From Paralichthys olivaceus (taxonomy: Eukaryota; Chordata; Actinopteri; Pleuronectiformes; Paralichthyidae): a stretch of 64,000 nt of DNA. Both the position numbers and the translations under genes were made by a program. Shown one piece after another: positions 5,058-64,000 of the stretch. The stretch lies in contig NC_091110.1 of NCBI RefSeq assembly GCF_024713975.1, positions 19,669,501 to 19,733,500 on the forward strand, written 5' to 3'. The notes under the pieces were generated by a model. That model was not told where the DNA came from. It did no database searches and saw only the letters and a list, made by a program, of their open reading frames with translations. Within the stretch, counting starts at the first letter, position 1. Every line of letters begins with the position of its first letter.

Positions 5058-10402
<5,345 letters not shown>

Positions 10403-14279: not shown

Positions 14280-17200
14280 TTAAAATAAGAAATCAGATTT
14301 ACGTGCGTGAAGCCGGCGCAGGGATTTGTGTTTGAGTAACGCAGCGATCGAAGACGACCTTTTGACCCGAATCGTGCCCGCAATGGTCAATGGCCTCTCT
14401 CCAGAGGAAGCTGTGGAGAAATGATGGCGGCGGCGGCGGTGCTGCTGCTGTTGCTGCTCCCAGCTGGAGTCTACTTTCCTGCCTGATCCGTCTCCGCCCA
14501 GAGCGACTCGAGCTGGTGCGCCCAGCAGCTGGAAGATTTCCAGCGGTGCGTTGCAGCCCAGGTACTGCCAGGGCCTCTTTCCCGCCGTGTCCCTGAGTTT
14601 CACATCAGCATCAAACTTGCTGACCAGCAACCGCATTATGTTCTTGTTGCCGTGGATGGCGGCAATATGGAGAGGCGTGTGGCCAGATGTTGACCTGGCG
14701 TTTATGTCAAACATCAAACCGGCCTTTTGGACTCCATACCTGAAACCACAGCCGGAGAGAGCAGATCAGTGCCGGGTCACAGAGTATTAATCCACATCAG
14801 CAGATCAGATTAATTACAGACCGCAAAGCTCAGTGCTCTTCAAAGAATTACTTTTAGGAGTGAAATCAGTTTCATGAATCGGAACTTCATCGAACTGCTT
14901 CGTACCATAAGGTGTTCAGGACTCGGTGGTCTCCGTGTTTGGAGATCCAGTGCAGCACAGTGAAGCCGGAGATGAAGTCTCGCTTGTTGAGCAGAGACGG
15001 TTCATCTCTGAACAAGGAGTAGATTTCAGGCCAGTCCCCCGCCGCGCCCTTCACCAGCCAGGTGTGCTCGTTGGGCTCCAGAGGAACCAACGACTGAGAA
15101 CAGGGATCAAACAACGGCCTCGTGAACTGATTCAGTCAATTACATAAAAGCAGGAGGACAGTAATCAGTACTAACGGTTATTATGTAAATCAGAATCGAT
15201 CGATTCGAAGGATTTACAAACAGATTACTGCGAAGAATAGAACAGGAGTTTTGAATAGGACATTTCAAAATAAATAACCTGTGCAGATGGAAGGTCTCAC
15301 CTGTTTACTGGAGCCTTCATGCTGAGCGGTGGAGGGGGAGGCAGGGTTAACAGCAGGGAGGCTCCTCCTACCTCCGACCCGCCTTTCCCTCTCGACCAGG
15401 TCAGCGACGCTGTGGCTGCGCGGCGGCGTGGAACACGACGACAGAGAGGAGGAAGAGAGGTTGTGATGGAGACTGAGTGAGGAGGAGATCAAATGGAGGC
15501 GGTTCAGTCGGGCCACCTCACTTCCTCCTCCTCCCTTCACCTCCTCCTGCATGAGCTGGTCGAGGTCAGCCCCGAGGCTGCGGCACATCCTGCTCCTCAC
15601 CTGACTGCTGAGCCGCCTGGTGACCGCCGGGCGCTGCCGGACGGGTGACGATAAGGATGAGCCATCGCTGGACTCAGCGTCATCATGGTCGTCATAGAGA
15701 TCACCTGAGGGTTCAGGATGCGTTGAGCTAGGACACAGATCGTCTGAACGAATCTCACGGCACCGTCTAGTTTCCACCTCATCCAAAATCACCTCTTACT
15801 GACTGATGACCTTTGTTAAGTTTATATTCACTGTAAATCTCCTCACACTGAATATACCTCTATCTGTCTTCACACTGAATATCTAGTTTAATTACATTCA
15901 TATGTTTCTATATAACTTTGTATATTCCTGATACTTAAGTGTTGCATGTTAGTTAATGTCTTTTTGACTCTTGCTGCTGTAATATTGCAAATGTCCCCAT
16001 TGTGGGACCAATGAAGGATGATCTCATCTTCTTATCTTATCTTGTCCAAAGCCACGATAAATGTTTTGTAAAATGAATAAGAGCGGAAGTGTCTCTCCAG
16101 AGGGCGTCAGTGTGTCTCACACAGTTGGACAAACAGAGATAGTTGTGTTATGGATGATAAAGATAAGTCCAGAAGGAAGTTCGATCTCTGAACTTTCACT
16201 TTCCTCTGTTTCTCTTCAACTACAGCACCTGAATGTTTCACTGTTCTGACAGTGATGCCACACAATCTGCTGGAACTTCAACCAAACATGTTGCAGCAGG
16301 TTACTAACAGAGAAGTTCTGTTCTTTTTCAATGTGCCTGTTACAGTTAGCCCACATTCCAACACGCCTCACGTACATCAACACAGAAACTGTGCGAGAAG
16401 CTCCATGTCAAGAAATACTCATTTCGACTGAACTTCACAGCCGCGTTCATCATCTGATTCTATTTCTAACTAGCTATGATGACTTCCTGTCAGTTGGTGA
16501 AACAGCCTTTAATTAGCTCCTTCATAGAACGGATCCTTTAAAAACGAACTGAATGTATTTAGTTGAACACTGAACATCTCGGTCTTCAGAGAAAAGCCTT
16601 TCAACTCTCACCTGTGGAGAGGTGCCATGGCAACACTCGGAGTTTAGAGTCCTGGTTGTCGTGGAGATGTTCAGTGGAGTGGTGGAACGGTGACAAATGA
16701 CCTGCTGTGATTTTACTGTCATCGAGATGCGTCACAGACTCAAGCTTGGTCCTTTGTGCTCGCTGGAGTACGTCCTCGATTTTATTTCCACGGCCAGTCT
16801 CACCTGATGAGTTAAAGTTAAAGAGACAGTTTTTTGTACAAACGTCAATTATCTGATTTTCACAAGCGGAAAGAACTCCAAACACCTGTATAGTTCTATT
16901 GTTTTTAAACCTTTGAACGTAAACGACTTTTCCCATCTAATGTCACCTATTAACTAAAAGACTGATGATCTCTGTTGTTGTCTAATGTAATTGTTTTGGT
17001 CTGAGGATCTAACGTGATAATTTAATAAGCCTCAAAATCAGTCAAAGCCTATTTAAAGAGTTGTATCCAGACAAAGTTCTTCTAACACTTTGTCGTTATG
17101 GATGCTAACTTCCTGCATGGAATGTTTTGTCAAAGACGACTCCAGCGGAGGTCATTTTTCTGACTATACTCTGTAGAGGATTAATATGTGCGTTACAGTG

Positions 17201-19028
17201 AGCGTTTCAGGAAGTATGATGTGTGTGTGTGTGTGTGTGTTTGAGTCGTAACAAACTGCAGTGTGTGTTCGTGATAACCTCCCCCAGTGGAAAACCGTGG
17301 TTCACTAAAGTATTGTTAACAGTCTTTGAATCAAAGGAGCTCCATGGCACAGAAGAATAAGATGCATCAGGTTTTACCTGCCGGGGCCTGTAGTTCCTCG
17401 TAGCTGCTGTTCCACCGGGATCCTCTGGAGGAGCCAGACGGAGGCCAGTCGCTGCTGGAGAAGCCAGCGTCCGAGGAGGGGGAGAAGATGCTGCTGTGGC
17501 TGGACGACAGCTGCGCCCCCTGGCTGTGATGAGACCTGGGTTCCGGCTGAACGCCTGGCGGCTGCGGGGATCGACGGTCCTGGTGGACGCCGTGATGAGG
17601 TGAAACCTTTCTTACCCCGTCTGGAGATGGCGTGTAGAGGTCTGGTCGGCTGAATCTGATGGGTGTCGACTCTGGTGATACATGTGTGTGTTCCACCCCT
17701 GCCCCCACCCACTGTCCTTTTAGCTCCTCCCCTGGCTCAAAGCTAAAAGCTGGGCCAATGGGGGGCAGCGTTCCTCCTTCCACATCCTGGACGTAAATCT
17801 TTGGGAGATTCCTTTCTGATGAAGAGGAGGACGCAACAGAGGGAGGTGCAGGTGACTCTATGATGCATGGCGAGGAGGCGGAGAGGGCCCTCATGGAGCC
17901 TTCTAGCGGAGCACTGAGGGGCCACACTCCTCCTGCTGAACCTCGCCTCATGGTGGCCTCTTCCTCTTCCTCTTCATCCTCATCATCATCATAAGAAACA
18001 GCCGATTTGTAGCTCGGCCTGTGTCTGAATCTGCGTGGAGCGACCTGAGGATGAAGGGGAGGATCTTGATGAAGGCCTCCTCCTCCTCCTCCAGGCTGCA
18101 CACAGGCCTCCCTGCCCCTGAGGGGTTGAGGGGCTGCCCCCTGCTGGGGGGTTTCTCCATGATGTCGGACCACGGGTGTGATCCCAGGGGGGGGGCCGAA
18201 ACCCAGAGTCTGCTGCCGCACCTCGGTGCACTGAAGTCGGACGGGAGGCTCAGACACACCGGGGGTCTTCAGGAGGGGTTCTTTAGAGAAGTGGAGCGGA
18301 GCAGCTGCTGCAGGTGAGACACGAGGCTCAGGTGAGAAGTTTACCTGTTTTTGATGCTGTTGATGATGTGATGGTTGTTGTTGTTGTTGATGCTGTGGTT
18401 GTTGTTGTTGTTGTTTTTGTGGTTGGTGCTGTGGTTGTTGTTGTTGCTGTGGTTGTTGTTGTTGTTGTTGTTGTTGATGATGCTGTTGTTGTTGTTGTTG
18501 ATGATGATGCTGTGGTTGTTGTTGTTGCTGCTGTGGTGGTTGTTGTTGTTGTTGTTGTGGTTGTTGATGTTGTTGTTGTTGTTGTTTACGTTTCAGGTTC
18601 AAATTCGTCTCCATGTTGTTGTTGTTGATGATTCCAGCTGCAGGTAGGATCGTTTTCATGGCGGTTTCTCCCGGCGGGGCGGGTACTGTCACCTCCCTCA
18701 TCTGTGCTTGTATCTGGGGCTTCTCCGCTCGCACCTCAGCCGGACTCAGGTGAGTCTCCGGGGACCTGGAGCCTGCTCCTCCTCCTCCTCTGTCCCCCGG
18801 GACATGTCCCCGGAACTTCTTCCTCAGAACCACATAAGACACTCCGTCCTCCTGCCGGACCGTCGCCAAGGTGTTAACGAACCTCTTGAACATCTCCCGG
18901 TTTCGGTCCCGGTCCGCGTGGTTCCGGATAAAGTTCCTGAAGTGAAGCAGCAGGTCGGAGTTTTTCACGGAGCCTCCGTTGCTCCGGAGGAAACCAAGAA
19001 CCGCGTCCTGCGATAAGTCTGTGGCCAT
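14280..19028 (-). CDS. sowahb: Sosondowah ankyrin repeat protein, SOWAHB-like, 994 aa
   Basis: Minus-strand coding exons: 17378-19028, 16612-16803, 15301-15794, 14906-15093 and 14280-14739 (stop TAA). All phases agree. The ATG at 19028 is the first in its frame and gives MATDLSQDAVLGFLRSNGG, matching the SOWAH N-terminal winged-helix-like domain (about residues 1-80: LLLHFRNFIR, MFKRFVNTLATV, YVVLRKKF). Residues about 149-230 are a Gln/His/Pro-rich tract. The middle is low-complexity Ser/Pro. Ankyrin repeats lie at about 787-905, with GFTVLHWISKHGDH and GHTPLHIAAIHGNKNIMRLL. Synteny with ccni and shroom3 supports SOWAHB over its paralogues. Biochemical function is poorly known. Mammalian SOWAHB is, as I recall, single-exon and about 790 aa. 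The exon 3 acceptor (TAAG before 15794) is the least certain junction. Confidence 0.87.
15820..16045 (+). mobile_element. LINE-like 3' end relic in a sowahb intron
   Basis: Includes tgttagttaatgtctttttg, then ctgctgtaatattgcaaatg, the word ccattgtgggaccaatgaag, and a terminal short repeat of TCTTAT. This arrangement resembles the 3' tail of fish non-LTR retrotransposons. No reverse transcriptase frame is present. Confidence 0.5.
18345..18584 (-). repeat. sowahb: Gln/His/Pro-coding trinucleotide tract in sowahb exon 1
   Basis: On the coding strand about 80 codons are CAA or CAG runs interrupted by CAT/CAC and CCA. The plus strand reads as gtt/ttg/gat runs. Interruptions are dense, so this is not a pure CAG array. 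Confidence 0.93.
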
Positions 19029-19200
19029 GATGGGTTCAGTGTGTGTCCGTGTGTGTGTGTGTGTGTGTGTGTGCTCGTTCCAAAGGTCGGGTCTGTCACT
19101 CAGGAATGAAGCCCCGCCCACCTCAGGTATTCCACCCCCGCCCAACCTGCTGCATTCCTGCACGTGACCCGGATGTTGGAGTGTGCTGGAGACTTCATGT
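19029..19200 (-). promoter_or_regulatory. Candidate sowahb promoter
   Basis: Two GC boxes (ccccgccca at 19112-19120 and 19136-19143 region), a palindromic E-box CACGTG at 19161-19166 and a CA/TG tract at about 19048-19073 lie just upstream of the sowahb ATG. Confidence 0.45.
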
Positions 19201-19395: not shown

Positions 19396-20622
19396 ACTTA
19401 GCAGGTGTTAGCAGGTGTTTGTAGGTGTTAGCAGGTGTTAGCAGGTGTTAGCAGATGTTAGCAGGTGTTTGTAGGTGTTAGCAGGTGTTTGTAGGTGTTA
19501 GCAGGTGTTTGTAGGTGTTAGCAGATGTTAGCAGGTGTTAGCAGATGTTAGCAGGTGTTTGTAGGTGTTAGCAGATGTTTGTAGGTGTTAGCAGGTGTTT
19601 GTAGGTGTTAACAGGTGTTAGCAGGTGTTAGAAGATGTTAGCAGGTGTTAGCAGGTGTTAGCAGGTGTTTGTAGGTGTTTGTAGGTGTTAACAGGTATTA
19701 GCAGGTGTTAGAAGATGTTAGCAGGTGTTAGCAGGTGTTTGTTGGTGTTAACAGGTGTTAGCAGATGTTAGCAGGTGTTAGCAGATGTTTGTAGGTGTTA
19801 ACAGGTGTTAGAAGATGTTAGCAGGTGTTAGCAGGTGTTAGCAGATGTTAGCAGGTGTTAGCAGATGTTAGCAGGTGTTAGCAGATGTTAGCAGGTGTTT
19901 GTAGGTGTTAACAGGTGTTAGCAGGTGTTAGAAGATGTTAGCAGGTGTTAGCAGGTGTTTGTAGGTGTTTGTAGGTGTTAACAGGTGTTAGCAGGTGTTA
20001 GAAGATGTTAGCAGGTGTTAGCAGGTGTTAGCAGGTGTTTGTAGGTGTTAACAGGTGTTAGCAGATGTTAGCAGGTGTTAGCAGATGTTTGTAGGTGTTA
20101 ACAGGTGTTAGAAGATGTTAGCAGGTGTTAGCAGGTGTTAGCAGATGTTAGCAGATGTTAGCAGGTGTTAGCAGATGTTAGCAGGTGTTAGCAGATGTTA
20201 GCAGGTGTTTGTAGGTGTTAACAGGTGTTAGCAGGTGTTAGAAGATGTTAGCAGGTGTTAGCAGGTGTTAGCAGGTGTTTGTAGGTGTTAGCAGATGTTA
20301 GCAGGTGTTAGCAGGTGTTTGTAGGTGTTAACAGGTGTTAGAAGATGTTAGCAGGTGTTAGAAGATGTTAGCAGGTGTAAGAAGATGTTAGCAGGTGTTA
20401 GTAGATGTTAGCAGGTGTTAGCAGATGTTAGTAGATGTTAGCAGATGTTTGTAGGTGTTAACAGGTGTTAGCAGGTGTTAGAAGATGTTAGAAGATGTTA
20501 GCAGGTGTAAGAAGATGTTAGCAGGTGTTAGCAGATGTTAGTAGATGTTAGAAGGTGTTAGCAGGTGTTAGAAGATGTTAGCAGGTGTTAGCAGATGTTT
20601 GTAGGTGTTAGCAGGTGTTAGT
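19396..20622 (+). repeat. 10-bp minisatellite, about 120 units
   Basis: An uninterrupted array of ten-base units of a few types: GTTAGCAGGT, GTTTGTAGGT, GTTAGCAGAT, GTTAACAGGT and GTTAGAAGAT. Unit types recur in blocks: the ten-unit order from 19751 to 19850 is repeated exactly at 20051 to 20150, a 300-base offset. The array begins about 370 bases upstream of the sowahb ATG. Most units contain CAGGTG across the junction with the next unit. Confidence 0.97.
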
Positions 20623-23849: not shown

Positions 23850-26534
23850 TCACAGTGACGTCACGGTGGTGGGCCTGACGGAGTGGGCGGGGCCTGGCAG
23901 CAGTGGTGGAAACAAAGAGGAACAGGTCGTGGGGCCTTGCAGCAGGAAGGGGGAGGCCCTCGACCAGCCGCGAGCCTGCGCCACGTCCACGGGCAGGCTC
24001 TCTGCGAGCCGCGTCAGCTGCTCCTCCTCCTGTCGTATGAGGTCCTCTAAGTGCCGTCGGCGAATCAGAAGCGAGGGTTTGGTGCTGACGAAGAGCCGGT
24101 AGTCCTGGAGCTGTGGTTCGGTGAGGTAGCCGGACAGGATGGCGTGGACGACCCGCTGCCGCCGGTCCAGGTTCTCCTTCAGCTCCCAGGCGTCTTCGGT
24201 TTGACGGAGGAGCAGAGAGCGTTTGTGATGGAGGGAATCCTGACGAAGAGGAGGAGACGAGGTTTCAACAGTTGATTCAAAACAGGTATTTATACTTTGA
24301 AACTTATTTAAATCTCAATGGAAACTACAACTTTACAACTTTTAACCAACGTTTAATCAAAATGTTAAAGAATGAACTCATAAAATTATCAGTTTTCTCA
24401 TTTTCTTCAGACTCATAAGTTTTCATGACCTTTGACACTGAAATCTAACCATTCATTCAGTTCTTCAGATAAACAAAAAGGGTTTGAGGTCATAGTGACC
24501 AAATATAATCAGTTCATCTTTGAGTCAAATCGAACATTATTGTGGAATTTGAAAAAACTCCCTTGAAGCATTTTTAAGATATCGTGTTCACAATGGGACG
24601 AAACAGAAAACAAAATTAGTTTTGCCTCCGGGTGGCGCCACCACAGAGGCAAATGTTTTCACGAGTCATGGAGCTCAGTTGAACTCATGTATATGTCAGA
24701 CAGGTAAAGTCGTGAACGTTAGACAGGTGAGCGTCATCCTGTCTCACCCGCTCCTCTGCTGTTTCCTCCTGCGTTAGCTCCTCCCTCTGCAGGGCGACCA
24801 GCGACCTGTCGATCCTCGACAGTCGACTGCACAGCGACAACAGCAGGTTCACGATTTTCTCCAGATCTCCTGCAAACACAACATCTCAGTCTCTACTAGC
24901 AGCAAGGCATCATGGGAGCTGCAGTATTATTAGTGACGGTGTGGTGCTGTACCGATGAACATGCTGTACTTGTCCCTCTCGTTGGTTTTTAGGCGTTCCT
25001 GCACCAACGCCTCCACGCTCGCCCCCAGCTCCTGGTGATGCTTCTGCTCCTCGCTCAGCGCCTCCTTCTCCTGCCGCAGAGCGTCCACGCTGCTCCTCAG
25101 AGCCTCACACAGCTCCACCTGGTGGACAAGGAGGGAGATTCCCAGGAGTTTCACTTGTCAAGGTAGTTAAGTTCTCATCTGTTTTTCTGAATGTTTAGTC
25201 TGAAGCAGTTTACACAACTGACTTTATTAAAAACTTGTCTGAGGGAAGAACTCGTTTATATTTGGAGCAAATTCAATGAACGAGTCGGATCCAGGAATTT
25301 TACGAAATATCTGTTTTAAAGTAAAAGACATTTTACTTATAGACCTGATGTGAGACTCTGGTGTTTATGTTTGTGCTTTGCAATAGATTTTATATTAATT
25401 AGTTTATAATATATAATTGGTTTATAATGATGATAAGGTGAAGAGTTCTTTTTACCTTCCTAGTGTTGACATCTTTGTCGTCCTCCTCAGTCTCTGTGTC
25501 TCCATCCATCACTGCCCTTGGAGCAGAACCAAAAATACCATCTTGGATCCTGAGGAAACATGATCAATAAAACTTTATTTATTTTTCCCAAATACAGACT
25601 GAAGATGAGCCGGACTGGACCTCAGAGACAAATCAGAACACAAGAAAATCGCAGACCCGCTGGTATGAGCTCCTGTTTTCATCTTCCATCTGTAATATTT
25701 GTTCATATTTATTAAATTCTTTAATTGTCTGACTTGTGTGAATATTGTACTCTATGGCCGCCAGGTGGCAGTGTAGTTCTGTGAATCCCTGACTCTGTCA
25801 CATTAAAATCAAACAAGTAAACAAAGTAATAATAAGTAATGAACCTCCGACTACGACAACAGAAGGATTGAAAACACTTTCCGAGCTGAAACTGCTGCAG
25901 CTTCTTTTAGACACTGAAACATATTGAAACTGTTGATCTGGTTCGTCTGGTCGGTCCTGACTGATGATGTCATTAACAGGAAATCACACTTTCACCTTCT
26001 AACCCGCTTCCAGTGAAGCACAGAGGATTCAACCTAATTTACATTCAGACGAAACTTTGCTTCATCGTTTCCAAATCCCCCAAAAACACTTTAGATGGAT
26101 TTATTCTGGAAACAAGAAACACGTGTGACTTACACATGAAAGAGCTGCAGACGTTTCACTATGATCAGTCAACACATTTCTAATGGAAAGATTCTGTTGA
26201 AATCTTTAGTGGATGACTGATGAGTCCTCTCCTGAGGAAACATTCCGAACACGATGTTCACCAACAAACAAAACACAGTTTAAATGTCGCTGACTTTAAA
26301 AGCCTCAACGTGCAGAGACAGCAGAGGTTCGTTTCTCCAGATTAAAAAACATCAGCTGACTGAAATAACACATGATGTCAGAATGTACCTGTCGTCCATC
26401 TGACGGCTGCCTCTGTGCAGCCAGTGACTTTTATCAGCGGTTCTGCTGTTTGGAAAGATTTCCTTCATAATCTCAACCGTGGATTTAGCTCCCCACGTGT
26501 CCAGGAGGGGCGCCAGAGAGCTGTCCAGCAACAC
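23850..26534 (-). CDS. shroom3: shroom3 ASD2 (Rho-kinase-binding) exons
   Basis: Exons 26389-26534, 25456-25549, 24953-25118, 24748-24869 and 23850-24239 encode the coiled-coil ASD2 (about residues 1754-2030), with [40 protein letters not shown] and [14 protein letters not shown]. These are family-defining. The protein ends [11 protein letters not shown] before TGA at 23850-23852. Confidence 0.95.
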
Positions 26535-48146: not shown

Positions 48147-49186
48147 AAGTCACTACAGGTCAGTTTTGCGGACATGAGACTTACATTAATTTCCTAACAT
48201 CGTACCCTAAACTGACCTTAACCACTGACCCCAAAATCAGCTTTTCCCCAAATGGGGACACAGCTTTTGTCCCCAGTTGGACGAGGCGTCCCCAATTAAC
48301 CGGTCTTCGGTCTGAAATTTGTCCCCAACACACACACATGGGTTCCGCTACTTGGCCTAAATCTGACGGCTGCTGACAAAGTCCTGAGTTTCTGGTTGTT
48401 CCAACTCAACCCTCGACTGTGGGTTAAAACCTGTCGTTTCCATTTCAGGCCACTTTCTCCGTCCGTTCCACTTCCCCCCACCCCCCCCCCCCCCAAGTCT
48501 GAAGATGTCTCCTCCACTATCAGTTTATATAAAATGTTCCTATTGGATGAAGTCTAATGTCAAACGTCTTGACACTGGTGAAACACGCACAGGACTCGGA
48601 GCTGGTGCGTCTCTGTCTGAGTTAGATATGAACGTACATGAGCGTAGACACTACAGTGTCCTGCTGCTTGGCACTTTATCTACAAGCTGACCTTCGGGGA
48701 CAGAAAGGAGAATAAGTGGAATTGGACAGACACGGTTCTCCTGGTGGTGCACAGATGTAATGTGAGAGGATGGTCAAAGCTCCTCAACAGCTGCAAACTG
48801 AGAAAAAGATAAAATGGCTAGTTTTGACGTGTAATTGTTGTTGTGCAATCACAAGGTCAACGCCTCCGACACACACATGACCTGATCTCCTCCGGCTCCT
48901 GCTTCAGATGAGAAAGTCTTAAACTGGAGTTCATGACTGGAGCAGTATCTGTCAGATTCACGTGGTTTCTATCTTAGGTCAGTTCTTAGTTTCAGTTCAT
49001 CACACACACACACACACACGTCACGTACCTGCGGACCATGAGCTTCAGAGTCTTGTACGATCCTTTCACCAGAGTAATGGCCTCCTGTCTGTATCCCGTC
49101 AGCTCCACATCATTAATAACGATGATCTCATCTCCCACCAACAGAGGCTGCTCCAACGTGTCGGCCTTACCGCCCTCCTCCACCTG

Positions 49187-49223
<37 letters not shown>

Positions 49224-49819
49224 CTGAGAAGATGTCGATGTTTATGTGAATTTCCAGTTAATTGTCGGAGGCTCATGACGCAGCTTCTTCTTGGTTCTGT
49301 GAGCTGAACATGTTCTGGATCGGTCTATGTACTGGAAACACACTGTGATGAAACGTGTTGAGTCACACTCACTGTTATCAGGGTTTCCATTGTTGTGGAA
49401 GGTTGGAAACACTTGTGGTGTGTGTGGGGGGGGGGGGGGGGGACATTTTAAAAGTAGCACAGAAGCATTTGTATCTGATTGATTTCATCTTATAACACTC
49501 ACTGTGTATTTTCTTTGTATCTGCCGTGAGCTTTTATATAACATTTAGCCTCCCACCTATAGTCGTGATGAGTTATTTCTAATGTTGTTTCTGTAAAGGA
49601 GCAAATCTCTACTATGTAAGAGCACAGACTGTAAATACAGATGTTTCCACTTCCTCCCCTTGTGGTTAAATGACTGAATATCATGATGTTTTAATATCAT
49701 CAAATAACTAAATGGTGTAAGAATCATAATATCACACACACACACACACACACACACGCACAGTATATCATCTTGACTTTATCAGTGTTGCTGATGATGC
49801 CTCTTTACAGCCTGTCAGA

Positions 49820-52526: not shown

Positions 52527-54240
52527 ACACACTCACTCACACTCTCACTGGCCTGCTGATTTGCATTTTAATAAAATGAGGTCACGATGGCTGTAAGGAC
52601 AGAGGAGAAATCGTTAGTGGTGTATTTGCTTATTGCAGAAGCTTCGATAACGCGACAAATCGAATATCAATAAAACATAATTGATGTTCTCGCTCATGTT
52701 TCAGCTCCTTCAGTCAATCACAAGTTTCTTTAGTCTGAATCTAAAAACAGTTTTTGCTTTATGAGGCTAAAACCTCCGACTACTAACGATAAGAAGCTAA
52801 ATGAAGTGAAACCATTACTCAGCGTCTGTTGATGTCACCGGTTACCATGACAACTGTCTCCTGCAGATGAAGTCATCTGTAGGTAATTAGTGTTAATTCT
52901 GGTTGGACGACTATAAACTGAACTCCAGTGATTCTGTGTGACATCGTTTCATGTGTGAACCTGAACCCAGAGTCCGTCGTTCAGGGACCGGTTCGTTGAA
53001 ACTGGCAGAGTCCGTTTTTTTTTTCTTTCATTCTTAATTTTTGTGCCTTTTTGTATAATTTAGTTTGTTGTTGTACAGAATTATGGAAATTGTGACTTGA
53101 TTCTCTTTGACCTCTGTGTCGTGTTAAGAATCTGAAAAACCTTTAAATGTATCACCATGAAATCATCATAGTAAACTTGAATTCGATGTTATTGGTTTCA
53201 GAATCGTACAAAGATCAGTAAAGCTCAGAATATCTGAAAACATCTCAGCTTCTCTCTGCGTCTCGGTGGAAGTAAAATAGTTTGCGTGACTCTTTAAATC
53301 CCCTGTTGACAGTTTTCTGGTCGTTGTTCCTGACTCTTGTTGAGACTTAAGAACTGAGGATGTCACACCTTGTTAAAGCCCCAGGAGTCAAATCGTGATT
53401 TGTGAATATGGGTTATACAAATAGAACTTGATTGATTGATAAATCACAGCCTCAGGTTAGAAGGATAAGAAGCTTTTTTTATTGTTGATTCATATTTTAG
53501 ACTTAACATGTCAGTAGTTTGACCTCCGACAATCGTTCACCTGTAAATTATAAGGAAACTTGTTTTGATGCATCGATTAATCGAACAACACTCGACAATA
53601 ATACGTCATTAACTGTAACACTGTTAGTTGTGTCTCATTTAGTGAACGAAGGATCAGATAATAAAGTTTTATATCTCAAACTAAAAACACGAGGATCTGT
53701 CTCAGCCTCTTTCAGCAGCTTAGTGGAAGTGAAGTGTTAAAACCCTTTAAATAGTCACCGTAATGATATGATATGATATGATGTGATATATGACATGATA
53801 TGTAATGATATGTAATGATATGTAATGATATGTAATGATATAATATGATATAATATGATATATGATATGTAATGATATGTAATGATATGATATATGATAT
53901 GTAAATGACTCTGACAGAAGAATAGTGTTGGATGATGGACATGTTTCAGTTTAATTTATTTAATCTTGGTATTTATTCTCTGTTGGACTCTTGACCTGAG
54001 TGAACCTGAGTTCTGAGGAAACACGTGTTGACTCGTCGACTAATCGAACAATCGTCGATAACTAAACCTCCATGAATCGTTGGTTCGTACCTTGGAGATG
54101 ATGAGCGGCTCCCGGTGCTCCAGGCCTCCCTGCAGGGTGAAGCCCCACGGAGCTCCTCCCTGGAGCCGGGCCTCCACCAGCACCCAGCCGCCTCCTCCTC
54201 CTCCACCTCCGCCCGCCGCCCGGACACCGCCGCTCTCCAT
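23850..54240 (-). CDS. shroom3: Shroom3, complete PDZ-containing model, about 2058 aa
   Basis: Coding exons (minus): 54091-54240, 49029-49183, 41877-42053, 36728-36853, 35281-35499, 34875-35191, 34540-34792, 34289-34344, 33735-34191, 33364-33657, 32798-33239, 32552-32685, 32278-32427, 31607-32079, 31267-31485, 30925-31132, 30484-30781, 28807-28868, 27971-28062, 26936-27695, 26653-26869, 26389-26534, 25456-25549, 24953-25118, 24748-24869 and 23850-24239. They sum to 6177 bases and close in frame; human SHROOM3 is about 1996 aa. Domain order is PDZ, central Ser/Pro region with ASD1, proline-rich segment and C-terminal ASD2. Shroom3 binds F-actin through ASD1 and Rho kinase through ASD2, and drives apical constriction and neural tube closure (established). 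The start is the only ATG in the open first exon. The weakest calls are the 66-base intron at 26870-26935 and the GTTGGT donor after 26653. A candidate polyadenylation signal is the minus-strand AATAAA near 23134. Confidence 0.93.
26870..26935 (-). other. shroom3: Probable 66-base mini-intron in shroom3
   Basis: Begins GTTTGTCG and ends GTCCAG on the minus strand, with a T-rich middle. Its length is a multiple of three and it contains no in-frame stop, so retention would insert 22 residues (giving about 2080 aa). The inserted residues are hydrophobic and unlike the flanking Pro/Ser-rich protein, which favours an intron. Confidence 0.6.
27770..27885. mobile_element. Dispersed-repeat relic in shroom3 intron
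   Basis: The words ggttatgttttcacccccat, ttatgcaaaaactattggat and gaattatgatgcattgtggg resemble the element at 6835-7085. The same family leaves a trace at about 29205-29260 (caggattactcaaaaactcc). Confidence 0.5.
28290..28760 (+). repeat. Long polypyrimidine tract (C/T-rich)
   Basis: About 470 bases of mostly cct/ctt/tcc on the plus strand, so strongly purine-rich in the shroom3 transcript (intron between 28807 and 28062). The open frame through it is a by-product of composition. Confidence 0.85.
29658..29678 (+). repeat. Poly-C run
   Basis: About 18 consecutive C. Other homopolymer C/G runs are at about 47827, 48480-48494 and 49427-49442. Confidence 0.9.
31607..33239 (-). CDS. shroom3: shroom3 ASD1 (actin-binding) exons
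   Basis: Exon 32798-33239 carries [17 protein letters not shown], the ASD1 start. Exons 32552-32685 and 32278-32427 follow ([12 protein letters not shown]). Exon 31607-32079 carries [23 protein letters not shown] and [17 protein letters not shown], all strongly conserved with human SHROOM3. ASD1 targets the protein to F-actin. The intron at 32079-32290 edge contains imperfect copies of a word like CAACAAGTCAGAGTCCT on the minus strand. Confidence 0.92.
36038..36117 (+). repeat. (GT)n microsatellite
   Basis: About 80 bases of GT with single-base interruptions, in the shroom3 intron. Confidence 0.95.
37065..37140. mobile_element. SINE/MITE-like relic, family 'gtgaagccaaaaca'
   Basis: gctaaagtgaagccaaaaca followed by cctggtggccgcctgcagta. 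Related copies are at 58735-58850 (same orientation) and 42236-42400 (opposite). The segment at 4735-4812 ends with catccatcttaatataaagt, like the tail of the same recalled fish family. Confidence 0.55.
38265..38425 (-). CDS. shroom3: Candidate alternative first exon of shroom3 (PDZ-less form)
   Basis: ATG at 38425 opens [18 protein letters not shown] and ends SKVLRFTA plus AG at a phase-2 donor, exactly the phase needed to join exon 36728-36853 ([12 protein letters not shown]). An in-frame TGA lies two codons upstream of the ATG, so it cannot be a plain internal exon in this frame. It would replace the PDZ exons with a basic N-terminus. A shorter Shroom3 form without PDZ is known in mouse; whether this is its counterpart is inference. 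Use of an internal acceptor inside this exon is less likely but phase-compatible. Confidence 0.6.
38945..39345 (+). repeat. Purine-rich (GA) tract
   Basis: About 400 bases dominated by gag/gga/aga, upstream of the alternative shroom3 exon. A similar GA stretch lies at 40268-40455. Confidence 0.8.
41425..41440. promoter_or_regulatory. Perfect palindromic RFX X-box
   Basis: GGTTACCATGGTAACC, a 16-base perfect palindrome matching the RFX X-box consensus GTTRCCATGGYAAC, about 440 bases downstream of shroom3 coding exon 3. Confidence 0.6.
41628..41760 (+). repeat. Inverted repeat arm A
   Basis: Contains aactggagggaaccgttatc, tcggacaggaagtc and aaagggaatgaaccca. It aligns by eye at about three quarters identity with the reverse complement of 43080-43200. 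Confidence 0.8.
41877..42053 (-). CDS. shroom3: shroom3 coding exon 3 with polyQ run
   Basis: Phase-2 exon reading [15 protein letters not shown], a pure CAA-coded run of about nine Gln, then [13 protein letters not shown]. The last part matches the human segment ending SGGVKLRLKHR, which justifies including an otherwise unconserved exon. It lies between an inverted pair of repeats. Confidence 0.82.
42236..42400. mobile_element. SINE/MITE-like relic (inverted relative to 37065 and 58735)
   Basis: Contains gagtgggtggggtttatgac and the core agccaccagggggcgatcaa, a recalled common fish element. Confidence 0.6.
43080..43200 (-). repeat. Inverted repeat arm B
   Basis: On the minus strand it reads aactggaaggaaccattatc, atcggacaggaagtc and aaagggcatgaacccg. 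Copy A is opposite, so the arms can pair in the shroom3 pre-mRNA. Both arms keep the same short open frame (KLEGT..RTGS..SD..KG.EP), hinting at a once-coding source element. Confidence 0.8.
45640..45800. mobile_element. CA-flanked dispersed element, copy 1
   Basis: A (CA)n tract followed by cttctatcttagtggggaca, atgacataatgcattcc, then repeated 'ctgaacc/ctaaccc' words. A related unit follows the CA tract at 48100-48340 (tggggacacagcttttgtcc). This type is recalled as widespread in fish. Confidence 0.5.
45851..45916. mobile_element. Dispersed short element, copy 2
   Basis: Contains ggttagcttagcataaagac, tggaaaccaagggaaac, gttagcctg and attctgtccaaagg. It is a relative of 13565-13655 and better preserved. 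Confidence 0.6.
46217..46289 (+). repeat. 15-bp minisatellite, about five units
   Basis: Tandem GAGGGGCCCGACACT with few changes, between two unrelated intron segments. Confidence 0.9.
49029..54240 (-). CDS. shroom3: shroom3 PDZ domain exons
   Basis: Exon 54091-54240 begins [11 protein letters not shown], followed by a Gly run, and gives the first PDZ half ([20 protein letters not shown]). Exon 49029-49183 gives the second half ([20 protein letters not shown], then [18 protein letters not shown]). Together they form residues about 20-102. The exon 2 acceptor is preceded by a GT repeat. The 4.9-kb intron between them contains only simple repeats and dispersed-element tails. Confidence 0.93.
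49187..49222 (+). repeat. (CA)n tract at the shroom3 PDZ exon 2 acceptor
   Basis: On the transcript strand this is a GT repeat followed by GCGTGCAG at the splice acceptor (exon starts at 49183). A second, shorter array lies just past the donor at 49003-49020. Confidence 0.95.
49821..49889 (+). repeat. (GT)n microsatellite
   Basis: About 68 bases of pure GT. A CA array of about 26 bases lies close by at 49734-49759, so the two could pair. Confidence 0.95.
53380..53450 (+). mobile_element. Retroelement-tail-like relic
   Basis: Contains aatcgtgatttgtgaatatg, ggttatacaaatagaacttg and gattgattgataaa. The end with a short GATT repeat resembles tails of fish non-LTR elements. Confidence 0.45.
53764..53905 (+). 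repeat. ATATG/ATGTA-type AT-rich tandem repeat
   Basis: About 140 bases of gatat/tgtaa words (tgatatgatatgatatgatg, then repeated atgtaatgat). Confidence 0.9.
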
Positions 54241-54582
54241 GCCCGGACGGGGAGCGCTCCCTCCGGGCTCCTCGGTCCTCAGCCCGGCGGCGGAGGAGGG
54301 AACCGGACGTATGGAAACGATGTCTCCCGCACGGACACGCAGTTTCCTCCGGTCATTGAGTAGAAGTTGGTGGGTGAGAGGAGGAGGAGAACCAGGGGGA
54401 GAACCAGGAGGAGGTGTCCGAGCAAAGAGCCGGGCTGCCCGCAAAGTGCATTCCTCCAGCGGCCCACAGCCTCCACACGCTGCCCGAAAACACAGCCGGT
54501 CCCCGGCCACCGGACAGACGGAGAGACGGAGGAGTTCAACCGAGAGAGGAGAAGAAGAAGAATCCACAAGTTCCTCACACAC

Positions 54583-54613
<31 letters not shown>

Positions 54614-54620
54614 CTCTAAC
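54241..54620 (-). promoter_or_regulatory. shroom3: shroom3 5' UTR / CpG-rich promoter region
   Basis: GC- and CpG-rich DNA directly upstream of the PDZ-form ATG. The coding frame stays open for about 340 bases upstream but has no other ATG, so it is taken as 5' UTR. It is bounded by a TG tract at about 54586-54613. Confidence 0.5.
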
Positions 54621-57055: not shown

Positions 57056-60000
57056 CTAAACTTCCTCTGACGCGCTGTGGATCGTCTCGATTATCTTCTT
57101 CTTCAGTTTCTTCACTTTGTCCGGCGGCGTCTCGTTCAGACACTCCTCCACGTACTTCAGGAAGCCGGCGTGCGGCGACACCGTTTGACTGTGACAGAAC
57201 GTCCTCATGAAATCCAGCATGTCTCCGGTGGAGGGCGGCGCTCGTTTGCGCCCCGACACTCGGCTGCCGGTGTGAGAGGAGGATGTCGAGGGGGGCGGGG
57301 AGGAAGAGGGAGAGGATAGCCGGGAGTCTGGGGGAGTCGGTGAGGGCGGGGCTTCGAAGCCTCGCGGCGTGACGTTCAGCTTGACATCGGTTTGACTGTC
57401 AGTGTGGTAGTGTAGGGTGGGGGGCGTGGCCTTGCTGTCCAGGTGGAGGGGGATGGACTCCTGCGGTTGGTGGAAGTGGAGGTCTTCGGGTCGCTCGTCC
57501 TCGTCGCAGGAGTCACAGAGGAACATCAGATCCCGGTAATGTTTCCACTTGGGAAGGTAAAAGTCCTCAGAACCACACGTCTTGTTGGAACTCACCGCTT
57601 TGTGTTCCCGCTGGAAGATGGTTCGCAGGTTCCTGAACTTTGTCTTTATGTCGTCCACTGAAGAACGAAGAACAACAGAACCGTTAGTCTCCGCTGACAC
57701 GGACACGTAAAGAATGAATCTGCTCAGATCTCAGTTTGATCTGAAATGTCTCCATCAGCTCCATCGTCGTTACCTGTGAAGGGGACGGACTCGTTGTCCG
57801 ACAGGAGGCCGCTCAGCGTCTCCAACAGACTCTGCCTCAGCAGACGGTTCCTGTAACTCTCGGACTTGTGGTTCCACAGACAACTGCGCTCTGGAAGAAG
57901 AGAAACGACTTCAGCTCGCACATCATCTTACCTCACATCATACATTTAACAGATTCATTCTCTCAAAGCTCAGCAGCGACGCCACCTACCGGAGTAAAAT
58001 GAAATGAGCTGCTGAACTTTGGCCTCGCTCCAGTGGCAGCGGGACTCTGCGCTCGCTCTGCCGTCCGTCTCGAAAGGCACGGACACACAGAAACTCAGAG
58101 GGGAGGAGCTTGCGCAGGGTTTCGTGTCAGTTGGTGATGAAGATCGGGAGGTCGGGAGTGCGGCCGTTTGGTTTGATAGTTTGAGATTGTCTGGAGACGC
58201 AGAGAGGAGGGTTTGGTATCCGGAGCCGGTCCTGGCGCTGCTCTGGACAGAGGCGTTATTGACCTTGATGCTGTAGGTGGAGCTGGAGGAGAAGCTGCTC
58301 AGCGTGGAGGAGGGTGTTTGGTTCCCCTGCTCCACGTCCTTGTCGTCCCGCGGCATCGGAGCCTGCAGGTCGTCCGTGCCGTCGTCATCGTCCCAGGACT
58401 GGCAGAGGAAGAGCAGCTGCTGGTAGTGCTTCCATTTGGACACATAGAGTTTGTCGGACGCCTGGCTGGAGAGGACCGCCTTGAATTCACGGTTAAAAAC
58501 CGTCCGAAGGTTCTTGAACTTGCACTTTATGTCTTCAACTGCAAAACAACAACAAAGGAGTTGGATGAGTCAATTAAAGCTCTAAACTTGTTACAGGACA
58601 GTTTTCTGGACTCATTCTTCCGTAGTCAGTCTGTATAATGTTAAAGTGACTCTGCAACATTCCAGCTCTACGTAGCTTTTTGGAGACTTTTAGCTCATTG
58701 TTTTGGTTTTAGCAGCTCTTTAAACCCTTCGTATGCTAACTGCTCAGCACTGGAACATGGACTACAGGAAAGCTCCCAAAGTGAAGCCAAAACATCTTGA
58801 TTGCCCCCTGGTGGCTGGTTTCAGTATAGGTCTTATACTGACAGTGGTGACGGTTTAGGATGTTAAAGAAGAAGAACATTTGGATTTTTACCTGAGAAAG
58901 ACACTGACTGGTCGGACAGCTGAGCTCTCAGAACCTCCAGCAGCCTCAGCCTGAGCTGACGGTTGTTGTGGTTTTCAGATTTCTTGTTCCACAGACAGCT
59001 GTGTTCTACAACAACACACAACAACACACAACAACAACTCCTGTCAGCGCTCACTCTGTCTTTTATACATGAATCCCTCTGAGAATCATCCTGAAGCTTC
59101 AGTCTGTGTTTTTACCGGAGTAGAAGATGATCAACGCTCGCTCCCGCTCTTCGGTCCAGAAACATTTAACCATCATTTTGGAGGGGACGCAGGAGGACGA
59201 GGTGGAGGGGAAGGTGGGCAGGTTGGGGAGGAAGGAGATGATTAATCCCGGGGATGAATCGACCGTCTGGGTCGCTTCCTGTGGGAGAATCAGCGGCGAC
59301 GGCGGCTGGTCGTCGACGCCGTCGTCCTGGTCCCAGCAGCCCTGCAGGAACATCAGCTGCTGGTAGTGCTTCCACTGCGGCACGAACACGTCGTCCGCCC
59401 CACACACCTTGCTCGCCTTCACCATTTTGTACTGACGCTGAAAGGTGGTACGAAGGTTCTTGAACTTATTCTTAATGTCTTCCACTGGAAAGAAGCTTAA
59501 CATTAGGTTTTCTCCTGAATGCAGGCGTGAACGTCTCAGGATGTGTCGCGGTCTTACCTGTGAAGGGAACAGGCGGAGGCTGAGCGGACAGAAGGATCCT
59601 CAGGTGTTCCAGAGTTTTCCATCGCAGCTGCCGGTTCTTGTAGCTCTCTGACTTGTGGTTCCACAGACAGCTGTGATCTGAAGAGTGAAAAGAAAACAGA
59701 TGAATGAGCGCTCAGAGTGATGAAGAGGTTTTCACCACTGTCTATCAAGGTGTTGAGCTCCGACTGTGTCGTCCCACTCACTGAACTGTATCAACACCAA
59801 ACTATAATCAATGTAAGAAGTATTAAATATATCATGCACACAAATATATAAGAAAGTGTACATTAGTTTATAACCACAGCTTTATGATAATGTTCTGCTG
59901 AATATCGTCTTAATATCTTTTTTATAGTGTTTCTGGTCTGATCAGATTCTTTCATGTTGTTTACATGGTGACATCATAAAGTCACTGATTAATACTTTAT

Positions 60001-60679
60001 GTCATTAAACAACAGTCAGAAGTAAATACAACAGTCAGATGTTATTAAACAGTCAGATGTAAATAAACAGTCAGATGTAAATAAACAGTCAGGTGCAATT
60101 AAACAGTCAGTCACAAGTAAATACAACAGTCAGATGTTATTAAACAGTCAGATGTTGATAAACAGTCAGAAGTAAATAAACAGTCAGATGTTAATAAACA
60201 GTCAGTCAGAAGTAAATAAACAGTCAGAAGTAAATAAACAGTAAATAAACAGTAAATAAACAGTCAGATGTAAATAAACAGTCAGATGTAAATAAACAGT
60301 CAGAAGTAAATAAACAGTATATAAACAGTATATAAACAGTATATAAACAGTCAGATGTTATTAAACAGTCAGATGTTAATAAACAGTATATAAACAGTAT
60401 ATAAACAGTATATAAAGAGACAGATGTTCCTCCTGAACATCTGTCTCCAGTCGCTCCTCCATATCTGTGAACACTCGTCGCTCTCCTCGGGCAACAGTTG
60501 CCTCAGTTTGTTGCTGGTTCGAGAGAAGCGGGTGAAGAGAGGGAGTCAACCTGGAGCCGGAGGGAGGAGCAGGGCGAGAGGAGGAGAGCTGACTCACTGG
60601 AGAAGAAGCAGATCAACGTCTTCTCCTTCTCCTCGGTCCAGAATCTCTCCGCCGGGAAACTGAACGGAGCCGCCGCCAT
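57056..60679 (-). CDS. Triple-MADF-domain predicted DNA-binding protein, 650 aa
   Basis: Minus-strand coding exons: 60598-60679, 59558-59677, 59116-59484, 58892-59005, 57990-58538, 57774-57890 and 57056-57657; they sum to 1953 bases, close in frame, and every junction is phase 1. The ATG at 60679 gives MAAAPFSFPAERFWTEEKEK. Three MADF (Adf-1 type Myb/SANT-like) domains lie at about 13-114, 176-273 and 397-497. Each has an aromatic-rich start (WTEEKEKTLICFFS, WTEERERALIIFYS, WSEAKVQQLISFYS), then SCLWN.KSE, then V(E/D)DIK.KF(K/R)NLRT.F and a W-K-H-Y motif with L-FL. The linkers are acidic and Ser/Pro-rich. The C-terminal 40 residues (GFLKYVEECLNETPPDKVKK) resemble a BESS-type motif, the usual partner of MADF. 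MADF proteins bind DNA and regulate transcription; the target is unknown. I do not recognise a named orthologue. Confidence 0.88.
58735..58850. mobile_element. SINE/MITE-like relic in the MADF gene intron
   Basis: Contains aagtgaagccaaaacatctt, gattgccccctggtggctgg and tttcagtataggtc, the same family as 37065-37140. Confidence 0.6.
60010..60420 (+). repeat. AACAGTCAGATGTAAAT-type minisatellite
   Basis: About 400 bases of imperfect 17-19 base units with variants (agatgttattaaacagtc, agaagtaaataaacagtc) and a tail of aacagtatata units, in intron 1 of the MADF gene. Confidence 0.92.
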
Positions 60680-60800: not shown

Positions 60801-63743
60801 GAAACGCTGCTGCACGTTAAAACTTTTATTTCTTACTTTTATAAACTAATGCAAATAAAACATTGTTTAAAAGCTTATGTTAGAAATAATTCACTATTAC
60901 TATAACAATAAACCTTAATTTAATGACTCTTAGAAAGAATTCACTATTATTATAACAACAAAATACGAAGTAATTTAATATTTGATTTTTTTTTACGGTA
61001 GTAGTAAATATATAATAGTCTAATTATACCAACAACTTATTTTACTCTCAAGGTCAAGTATGAACTTTCAATTAAAATGTCTTTTAATAAAAAAATGATA
61101 GAAATGTAATTGAAATATTCATATTGTTTATGTAAAAAAGTTATTTTTTAAGTTTCCATGTCCTACCAGAACACACTAAGTAAATAAAAAGTCACATCAT
61201 GCTCGTGTTGTTCCATTTTAATTTCCACTAACCTTGTACACTTTCAGACGAGACACTGGACAAAGTGTATTTACAGTGAATCCTTGTGTACATTTACTTT
61301 GCTCATATACATTCACTCCATGTATTTACAGTTTTACTGTCACTGAACCATCTGAATTTAATAACACTTGAGTATTTACGTGCACACTAATGTCCTAATT
61401 TATCATCTGGAGGTTTGAGGTTTTTGCACAGATTAAGAAAAGTCACTGAACTGCAGACGTGTTAATGTTTAAATAAAGTGTTGGATTCATTCATGGACTT
61501 TAAAAGCTGGGGATGAAAACATCATGTGACAGAATCAATGTGCATGTGAACACAGTCAGGTGTAAATAACAGAAGAATTATTATCTGTTGCAAAGTCTGA
61601 TCTGAACAATTGTTTTTTAATGGTTTAGCTGCACAAGAGGAATCAAACCTTCCACCACTTCCACCCACTGTTTTAGTGCCATTGAGCATCACAGGACAAA
61701 AACACAGAAGGAAAACCTTCTGATGAACCAGACTTCACTTCTACATTATTTACAGACCATAATATTCACATTTTTTCATGTACATTTTAAGGTCATAAAG
61801 GAAATAACTCTGTGCCACTTAAACTCTGTTAAACTCTCATAGAATCTCTGTCTGATGCTTCAAGTATAAATTCATTCACAGGATTTTCACTGTTGTCAGA
61901 CAGAAGAACCTCAAACCTGCAACACACGAGAGAGGAGACAAAAAAAACGTTTCCCTAAAATCTAACAGTGAAGGATCATGGGTAACAGAAATGACCGACC
62001 GATCTCATGGTGTAAAGGAAAAAAAACTGCTATAAATACATTTCAGTGCTATTAATATACTTGTATATACTTGACTCACATACTGTGTTTGGTGTTGTGT
62101 TGTGCTTGTCCTCGGAAGTTAGCGCCACACACACACGATATTAAGTCATAACATAATCTTAACTAACAAATGAAAACGAGATCTTCTCCACATTTGTTGA
62201 CATTTAAATGATGAACTGATGATGAACTGATGAGCCGAGAGCACGGTTGTGTTGTATTGTCAACATCTGGAGCACATGCAGGACGTGAAGGGCCTGACGC
62301 TAAATATTACCATTAAATATTCAAGAGTGAGCAACAGTGAACATATTGGTTATTAACACCGTGACGAAGGCACACGAGCCCCTGGAGACGTCATTTTAGT
62401 AATAACACAAATCAAAATGATATAAAATACGTCTCCTCTAAAGATGCAGTCCTGAGTGAACAGGAAAGATGTGTTGAAATGCTGGTTGTTATCGGATCTG
62501 CTTCAAATCACAGAATCTGTTGAGTTTAAAGTTCAAAAATTACACTGAAATTAAAAAATACAAATCTGAGTGTGCTCGGATTTCTCTCGGAAGTTAAAAC
62601 ACCAGGTTTGCAGCTCTGAGGTTTTTCCACCGTCAGCAGCCGGCAGCACCTTCATAAAGTGACAATGATATAAAAATAAGAGTAAAATGAGTAAAATCCA
62701 GGTTATGATTTAAAAACATTTTTCTGAGGTAGAGTGACAAACAATGGGGATAATAAGTGGTGAGATTAGGAGTGAAGCTTATACACTGAGGTCATTTTTC
62801 TAACTGACATTATTTCGTTTCTCGCAAAAAATATCAACAATAAACGTGTGGTCAAAGTGCACGGCCTGAAAAATGTTCCTACTTATTTAAAATCTAAAGA
62901 AATTTAAATAAAACAGGACTCTTGCCCCGTTGATGTACATTTCAATGTAATGGATGATTTAAATAGATATTTTGAAATCCTGGATTTCACTTGGTTGTCT
63001 CGTCTCTCAGATCTTCACATTCAAACCTTGGCATCAATAACTCAAACATTTAAAAAGAATAAAAATCCTTAAACTCAAAAGGGAAGAAAGTTTAACAAAG
63101 TACGTTTTCTCCAGCTGAGAGAGTAGAAACAGTTTCAGCTGCTGTAAATATGTTGCAGACGTGTTTGTTTTATACAATAACCAGTAAAAAATTAAACACG
63201 ACATTAAAATACGACGTTAAAATAAAACAGCTGAAGGTAAAAACACTTTTTCTTGTTTATAACAAAAAAAAAACCAATCAACAGTTTCAAGCTTTAAGAT
63301 GAACGAGAATCCTTCGTACGTACGTCTCTCTCTTCACATGATTGACAGCTGGTTCCTCGTCCTCTCAATCACATGATGGTTTCGTCCTCGGCCGTCGTTT
63401 TTTGTCCCACGTCCGTCTGTCGTTGTCTCCGTCTCCTCCGTTCAGAAAAATAATAATGACATCTTATTTGCAGCTCTTTGCTCCCGCCCCCTCGTTAGAG
63501 AGCCGTCCTCATTGGTCGCTCACGTGATGTTACCGTCTGTGCTCCTGATCGGTGACATTAGCTCCTCCTTCTGGTGGAGAGACGATGCTGTTGGAGCTTC
63601 TCGCTGTCAATCACCTTTTCCTGACTTTGGAGGTACTTAGTTCCACCCTGCGGCAAAAATCTTCATCTTTTTTTTTTTGCAAAATGTCAATCAGTGAAAC
63701 TATAAACGTAAGCCCCGCCCTTTGTGGCTCTTCCACCTGTCCG
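60801..63743 (-). other. Probable long 3' UTR of the MFSD14-like gene and spacer
   Basis: AT-rich and free of supported frames. On the minus strand an ATTAAA variant signal lies near 61213, which would give a 3' UTR of about 2.5 kb after the stop at 63744. The segment between about 60830 and 61200 would then be the short spacer to the MADF promoter. Confidence 0.4.
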
Positions 63744-64000
63744 TCAAACGATACTGTCCTGCAGCAGAGGCTCAAAGTCCTCGTCGCTAGTGGTGGGAGG
63801 CGCCTCCTCGTCGCTGCCTGGGAGCGGCGTGTTGATGTGGACGCCAGCCAGTGAGGACATGGACTCTTTGCTGTCCGGGTGGGGCTTGTCGCTGAGGGAC
63901 AGGTGGGAGGAAGAGGAGGAGCAGGAGGTTTTCTCTGGGATGAAGAGGGCCACGAAGAAGGCGACCACCACGGTGCACGCACCCAACAGGAAGGGCGGGC
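63744..64000 (-). CDS. mfsd14a: MFSD14/HIAT1-like transporter, last exon (partial)
   Basis: The minus frame enters from the right edge and reads PPFLLGACTVVVAFFVALFI PEK, a final membrane helix, then a Ser-rich cytosolic tail ending TSDEDFEPLLQDSIV and TGA at 63744-63746. The last-helix wording and the EPLLQD ending match HIAT1 (MFSD14A) and HIATL1 (MFSD14B) as I remember them. The helix favours MFSD14A; the tail SDED.EPLLQDS favours MFSD14B. The family is orphan major-facilitator solute carriers of internal membranes. The paralogue assignment is therefore provisional. Confidence 0.7.
   Translation of the reverse strand, partial: PPFLLGACTVVVAFFVALFIPEKTSCSSSSSHLSLSDKPHPDSKESMSSLAGVHINTPLPGSDEEAPPTTSDEDFEPLLQDSIV

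Follow-up and report, generated by a model that had tools for sequence, protein, structure and literature searches.

The window, the whole 64,000-nucleotide stretch of Paralichthys olivaceus DNA that was analyzed (C18:19669501-19733500), carries on its minus strand a gene whose predicted product contains three MADF domains. The gene model, which was predicted from the DNA sequence and covers the coding region only (60679-57056), consists of seven exons of 82, 120, 369, 114, 549, 117 and 602 coding bases that join into 650 codons and a stop, with the ATG at 60679 and the TAG ending at 57056. The initial annotation had proposed one 650-aa frame at these same coordinates, and the spliced seven-exon model matched it exactly. 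It had also placed the SCLWN..KSE segment in middle exons of 114-120 bases, where 120, 114 and 117 bases were found, and had assigned all introns to phase 1, as was observed for 6/6, each with GT-AG borders. All five internal exons are divisible by three and symmetric (phase 1-1), the G+C content at third codon positions (GC3) is 0.77, and the gene looks intact at the sequence level. Intron 1 contains a minisatellite (window positions 59999-60428) with about 20 copies of a unit of roughly 18 bases, AACAGTCAGATGTAAATA, and longer periods overlapping.

Run against the complete 650-aa protein, the Pfam MADF family (PF10545) matched at three stretches (147.7 bits, E 1.2e-43). When each copy was scored alone, a check that the initial annotation had suggested, the values were 52.7, 59.5 and 60.1 bits, all clear of the cut-off of 22. 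Over 116 columns MADF 2 and MADF 3 showed 61% and 55% identity to MADF 1, and a pairwise alignment gave 58% identity between MADF 2 and MADF 3. Pairwise alignment scores among the copies were 301, 316 and 295, the best shuffled score being 15 (300 shuffles per pair), and the VEDIK..LRT segment was alike across all three. Nonsynonymous and synonymous distances between copies (Nei-Gojobori) were dN 0.29-0.33 and dS 0.95-1.52. dN is lower than dS, and the values are those expected of old copies mostly kept under purifying selection.

A decayed fourth MADF copy was not found in the window, the best tblastn match outside the exons having E 0.45 (63363-63440); within intron 1 the tblastn match to the MADF domains reached only E 1.1 (59938-59759), indicating no extra copy there. 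Pfam detected neither an ADD domain nor a zinc finger in the three-MADF protein. No relative of the whole protein was found among solved structures at E<=1, and a three-domain profile gave seven matches to solved structures with E 0.54-1.5, all at chance level. Pattern matches in a viral collection (307) and a prokaryotic collection (91) included no relative by tblastn, as expected of a vertebrate gene. The genome searched comprised 588 Mb in 25 contigs. With MADF 3 as query (98 aa, without the first helix) and E<=1, 6/6 genome matches were exon pieces of the window gene, only the best candidates being scored in this search, and by this measure the three-MADF gene is single-copy.

Each MADF copy is interrupted by two introns, at alignment columns 16 and 56 and in phase 1 in 3/3 copies, which bears out the claim that every copy is split alike. 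The duplicated unit is an exon pair, formed by a short exon and the exon following it, which ends in the first helix of the next copy; the helices of the window MADF domains are numbered here as we take them to run in MADF/SANT domains generally. In a nine-row tree a branch with support 99/97 separated the three window MADF domains from six further MADF domains of this genome; the tree carried a long-branch warning, one of the outgroup rows, next to the window rows, having a long branch. Taken together, the identical intron columns and phases and the 99/97 branch support the origin of the three MADF copies by duplication inside one gene, introns included, in agreement with the exon-pair duplication claimed in the initial annotation. 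The tree of the three domains, which had been proposed as a means of dating, recovered the common branch. It yielded no date, since dS between the copies is near saturation and too high for dating, and the order of duplication was weakly resolved (MADF 2 with MADF 3, 89/85).

The history of the two introns, a point added by this analysis, was read from relatives within the same genome, which tell the older intron from the newer. Three other MADF loci were used, 3/3 of those read with a split MADF domain: L031 (C18:12539000-12548999), a MADF-BESS gene of two exons that is likewise on C18 (MADF 69.1 bits, BESS 36.1 bits); L032, with exon pieces of 31.1 and 32.8 bits on a small custom profile; and L034 (C23:14713000-14722500; MADF 68.6 bits). 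The phase-1 intron before the EDIK-matching residues is common to the window gene and all three of them, and because its position and phase are shared, the second intron of each copy (before VEDIK) is probably older than both the duplication and the window gene. On the other hand, the three loci read through at the position of the first intron of the window gene, suggesting that this intron was probably gained later, in the lineage of the window gene before the duplication.

The linkers between the domains differ in length (58 aa for linker 1, 120 aa for linker 2), with pI values of 4.05 and 4.33 and a Ser/Thr/Pro content of 38-39%. Five of the seven Asp/Glu residues of linker 1 lie inside a 9-residue patch directly after MADF 1, and 6/15 of those of linker 2 inside the corresponding patch after MADF 2. 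The top-ranked acidic segments of the protein were the patches after MADF 3 and MADF 2, the MADF 1 patch being outside the best 12. The long acidic linkers described in the initial annotation are thus long and acidic overall, with an uneven acidity that is partly concentrated in the patches.

The C-terminal tail had been described as BESS-like. Three cuts of the tail gave no match to Pfam BESS (PF02944) at E<=10; the same Pfam library detects the BESS of L031 alone at 38.6 bits. Compared with that L031 BESS alone, the tail was at chance level, with 211, 184 and 254 of 2000 shuffles scoring as high. The tail of L034, for which no Pfam family was found at E<=10, resembles that of the window gene (4/2000 shuffles as high), and when the scores against three MADF-gene tails were summed, a comparison picked after looking, 0/3000 shuffles were as high; the L031 and L034 tails did not match each other (462/1000 shuffles as high). 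Residue shuffles lose helix periodicity, so these comparisons lend weak support. An AlphaFold2 model of the tail alone predicted helices at 13-25, 32-45 and 48-67 with low to middling confidence (mean pLDDT 66.5, pTM 0.31). Of the BESS-like description there remains a weak remote similarity.

Table 1. Coordinates of the three-MADF gene, its domains and the neighbouring features in the window
Feature	Position	Strand	Remarks
Exon 1	60598..60679	-	Start codon, MADF 1 first helix segment; donor GTGAGT, phase 1
Exon 2 (120 bases)	59558..59677	-	MADF 1 middle segment (HSCLWNHKSE...)
Exon 3 (369 bases)	59116..59484	-	MADF 1 VEDIK segment and end, acidic patch, linker 1, MADF 2 first helix segment
Exon 4 (114 bases)	58892..59005	-	MADF 2 middle segment
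Exon 5 (549 bases)	57990..58538	-	MADF 2 VEDIK segment and end, acidic patch, linker 2, MADF 3 first helix segment
Exon 6 (117 bases)	57774..57890	-	MADF 3 middle segment
Exon 7	57056..57657	-	MADF 3 VDDIK segment and end, acidic patch, Ser/Pro-rich tail, C-terminal helices, stop codon
MADF domain 1	59336..60643	-	aa 13-117, exons 1-3; pI 9.54, net charge +8
MADF domain 2	58396..59161	-	aa 176-276, exons 3-5; pI 9.47, net charge +6
MADF domain 3	57509..58035	-	aa 397-500, exons 5-7; pI 8.85, net charge +3
Acidic patch WDQDDGVDD	59309..59335	-	After MADF 1
Acidic patch WDDDDGTDD	58369..58395	-	After MADF 2
Acidic patch CDEDERPED	57482..57508	-	After MADF 3
C-terminal pair of predicted helices	57065..57172	-	BESS-like by remote comparison only
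MFS transporter C-terminus-like frame end	63741-63998	-	By eye
Shroom-type gene, ~30 kb	23850-54615	-	Pfam ASD2 and PDZ part; upstream end by eye
Shroom-type start frame	54040-54615	-	By eye; no Pfam match
Shroom-type PDZ part	48992-49324	-	Below cut-off
Shroom-type ASD2	23850-24314	-	121.4 bits
SOWAH-like frame	17367-19199	same as MADF gene	By eye; no Pfam match; glutamine-rich run
Ankyrin exon	14280-14765	same as MADF gene	Beyond Shroom-type gene
Cyclin exon	7780-8073	opposite to MADF gene	

The gene order over positions 7780-64000 of the window (MFS-like, MADF, Shroom-type, ankyrin/SOWAH-like, cyclin) is that of guppy LG12, where a MADF-domain gene is flanked by an MFS transporter and Shroom3, with SOWAH-like and Cyclin I coming after (PMC7643365, in the part available). 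The same part of that source calls the guppy MADF gene a putative transcription factor, annotated starting from matched transcripts, and places the gene island between repeat-rich blocks with male-biased coverage. From the gene order, the guppy MADF gene beside Shroom3 is likely the orthologue of the window gene; it is likened to it by position alone, with the same neighbours in the same order, the number of MADF domains and the introns not being stated in the available portion of the source. The search for another teleost with the three-copy layout, suggested in the initial annotation, led to this positional counterpart in guppy, for which the source gives no domain number. About 200 bases from the SOWAH-like frame of the window, a TTAGCAGGTG array of 1.2 kb (19398-20621) shows periods of 20/50/70.

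We propose, at a probability of roughly 0.65, that the window carries a single-copy gene whose three-MADF product regulates transcription or chromatin in the nucleus, and that this gene arose from a one-domain gene by two tandem exon-pair duplications; the guppy gene order raised this estimate from 0.62. The ancestor would have been a cellular gene with one MADF domain, in which the phase-1 intron ahead of the third helix was present from the start. Another phase-1 intron would then have been inserted behind the first helix, and the exon pair so delimited would have been duplicated in tandem, twice, the frame being kept at each duplication because every internal exon is symmetric. The role as a nuclear DNA-binding regulator is a best guess from the family. 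Work on flies assigns DNA binding to MADF domains that are basic and protein binding to those that are acidic (available parts of PMC11229372 and PMC5982830). Since all three window domains are basic (pI 8.85-9.54), binding at spaced or multiple sites, as the initial annotation had suggested, is plausible. All three domains, joined by flexible linkers, would touch DNA, so that the protein might grip several sites or one long composite site, and the acidic patches and C-terminal helices may mediate contacts with partner proteins or with another molecule of the protein itself.

Several points weigh against this proposal. The joining of the exons is predicted splicing, and a basic charge is no proof that a domain binds DNA. 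In electrophoretic mobility shift assays the two-MADF region of Mzfp1 bound none of the motifs tested (PMC11229372, available part), and the MADF-BESS protein CP60 failed to bind any of the DNA tested according to the accessible text of PMC10573801. The self-association step is weak because the tail matches no Pfam BESS model and scores no better than chance against the L031 BESS. The available part of the guppy source is silent on the number of MADF domains, so that conservation of the three-domain layout stays putative.

A less likely alternative is a protein in which one MADF domain of the three binds DNA and the others act as protein-interaction modules. A division of labour of this kind was proposed for Mzfp1 (available part of PMC11229372), and MADF 3 is the least basic of the window domains (net +3 vs +8 and +6). 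However, all three domains are basic, unlike the acidic and basic pair of Mzfp1, and they resemble one another in the VEDIK..LRT segment, which makes a single DNA-binding copy somewhat doubtful. A bolder reading, which we regard as improbable, is that the gene serves as a splice-tunable domain counter, giving one-, two- and three-MADF forms that would differ in their reach on DNA. With all five internal exons symmetric and divisible by three, skipping a short and long exon pair would remove exactly one MADF domain and leave a whole hybrid domain at the joint; the nearest precedent would be fly dAdd1, which has isoforms of differing MADF content in the accessible part of the source.

A recent origin of the window gene from a dispersed MADF repeat, as a domesticated PIF/Harbinger gene 2, was also considered. 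A MADF family search of the genome gave at least 33 matches at E<=0.001, including the three VEDIK-type exons of the window gene, and one dispersed MADF repeat type was recognized by a strict motif in 22/30 loci examined. We infer from its form and spread that this repeat is PIF/Harbinger gene 2. Many dispersed frames of a single repeat type are what such an origin would draw on, and the fish protein ADF-1L is described as PIF/Harbinger-derived (PMC11893794, available part). Yet the open repeat copies that were read run through the second intron position and lack the intron before the third helix, which the window gene shares with three MADF genes; the loci L033 and L035 (which contains L004) likewise read through there. 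In addition, MADF 1, 2 and 3 score 76, 70 and 48 with L031 but 43, 43 and 34 with the repeat, and the tree sets the window domains, weakly (71/70), beside the C23 gene and not beside the repeat. Recent capture from the repeat is on these grounds very unlikely; the evidence speaks to a recent origin and is compatible with the whole MADF family having come from a transposon long ago. Pfam detected no transposase in the nine neighbouring frames that were scanned. The dispersed frames themselves (L001-L025) are spread over many contigs, many being 132 aa long, and in one locus (L006) the end of a downstream frame can be aligned with the tails of MADF genes. That the locus is a pseudogene or an assembly artefact is hardly credible given an open frame of 650 codons, splice sites of the canonical type, GC3 of 0.77, a dN between the MADF copies that is one fifth to one third of dS, and a MADF gene at the corresponding place in guppy (available part of PMC7643365).

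The gene proposed here, a three-MADF regulator built by exon-pair duplication, would be a clean case of a DNA-binding domain multiplied inside one gene. To our knowledge MADF factors have been little studied in vertebrates, and no three-MADF fish protein was found in the part of the open-access literature that was surveyed. A single-copy gene with a likely guppy orthologue beside Shroom3 offers a convenient way to study whether MADF repeats act jointly on DNA.

The presence of several MADF domains in one protein is known from dAdd1, Mzfp1 and Hmr, and the window gene is a further example; its place beside these proteins rests on domain number, and no orthology is claimed. The statement of the initial annotation that MADF proteins usually carry one domain, rarely two, does not hold as an upper limit, since fly dAdd1 has three (PMC10671109) and Hmr is cited as having multiple. 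For dAdd1 (CG8290; isoforms b and c), the available part of PMC4249797 gives three MADF copies in the text, predicted to be basic, and two in a figure legend; dAdd1 also has an ADD domain, of which Pfam detected none in the window protein. Mzfp1 (CG1603) has two tandem MADF domains (PMC11229372 and PMC11677238, in the parts available), one acidic and one basic, together with C2H2 zinc fingers, whereas the window protein has three basic domains and no zinc finger match. Drosophila Hmr is cited among proteins with multiple MADF domains in the accessible part of PMC5982830, and is likened to the window protein by that description only. The MADF-BESS family (Adf-1, Dip3, Stonewall and CP60) shares the MADF domain with the window gene, which is without a Pfam BESS. 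In fish, ADF-1L of the miiuy croaker is described with a MADF domain and as PIF/Harbinger-derived, and no layout of several domains is mentioned for it (available part of PMC11893794). Within the same genome, L031 combines one MADF domain with a clear BESS (38.6 bits alone) and shares the phase-1 intron that precedes the third helix, whereas the window gene has three MADF domains.
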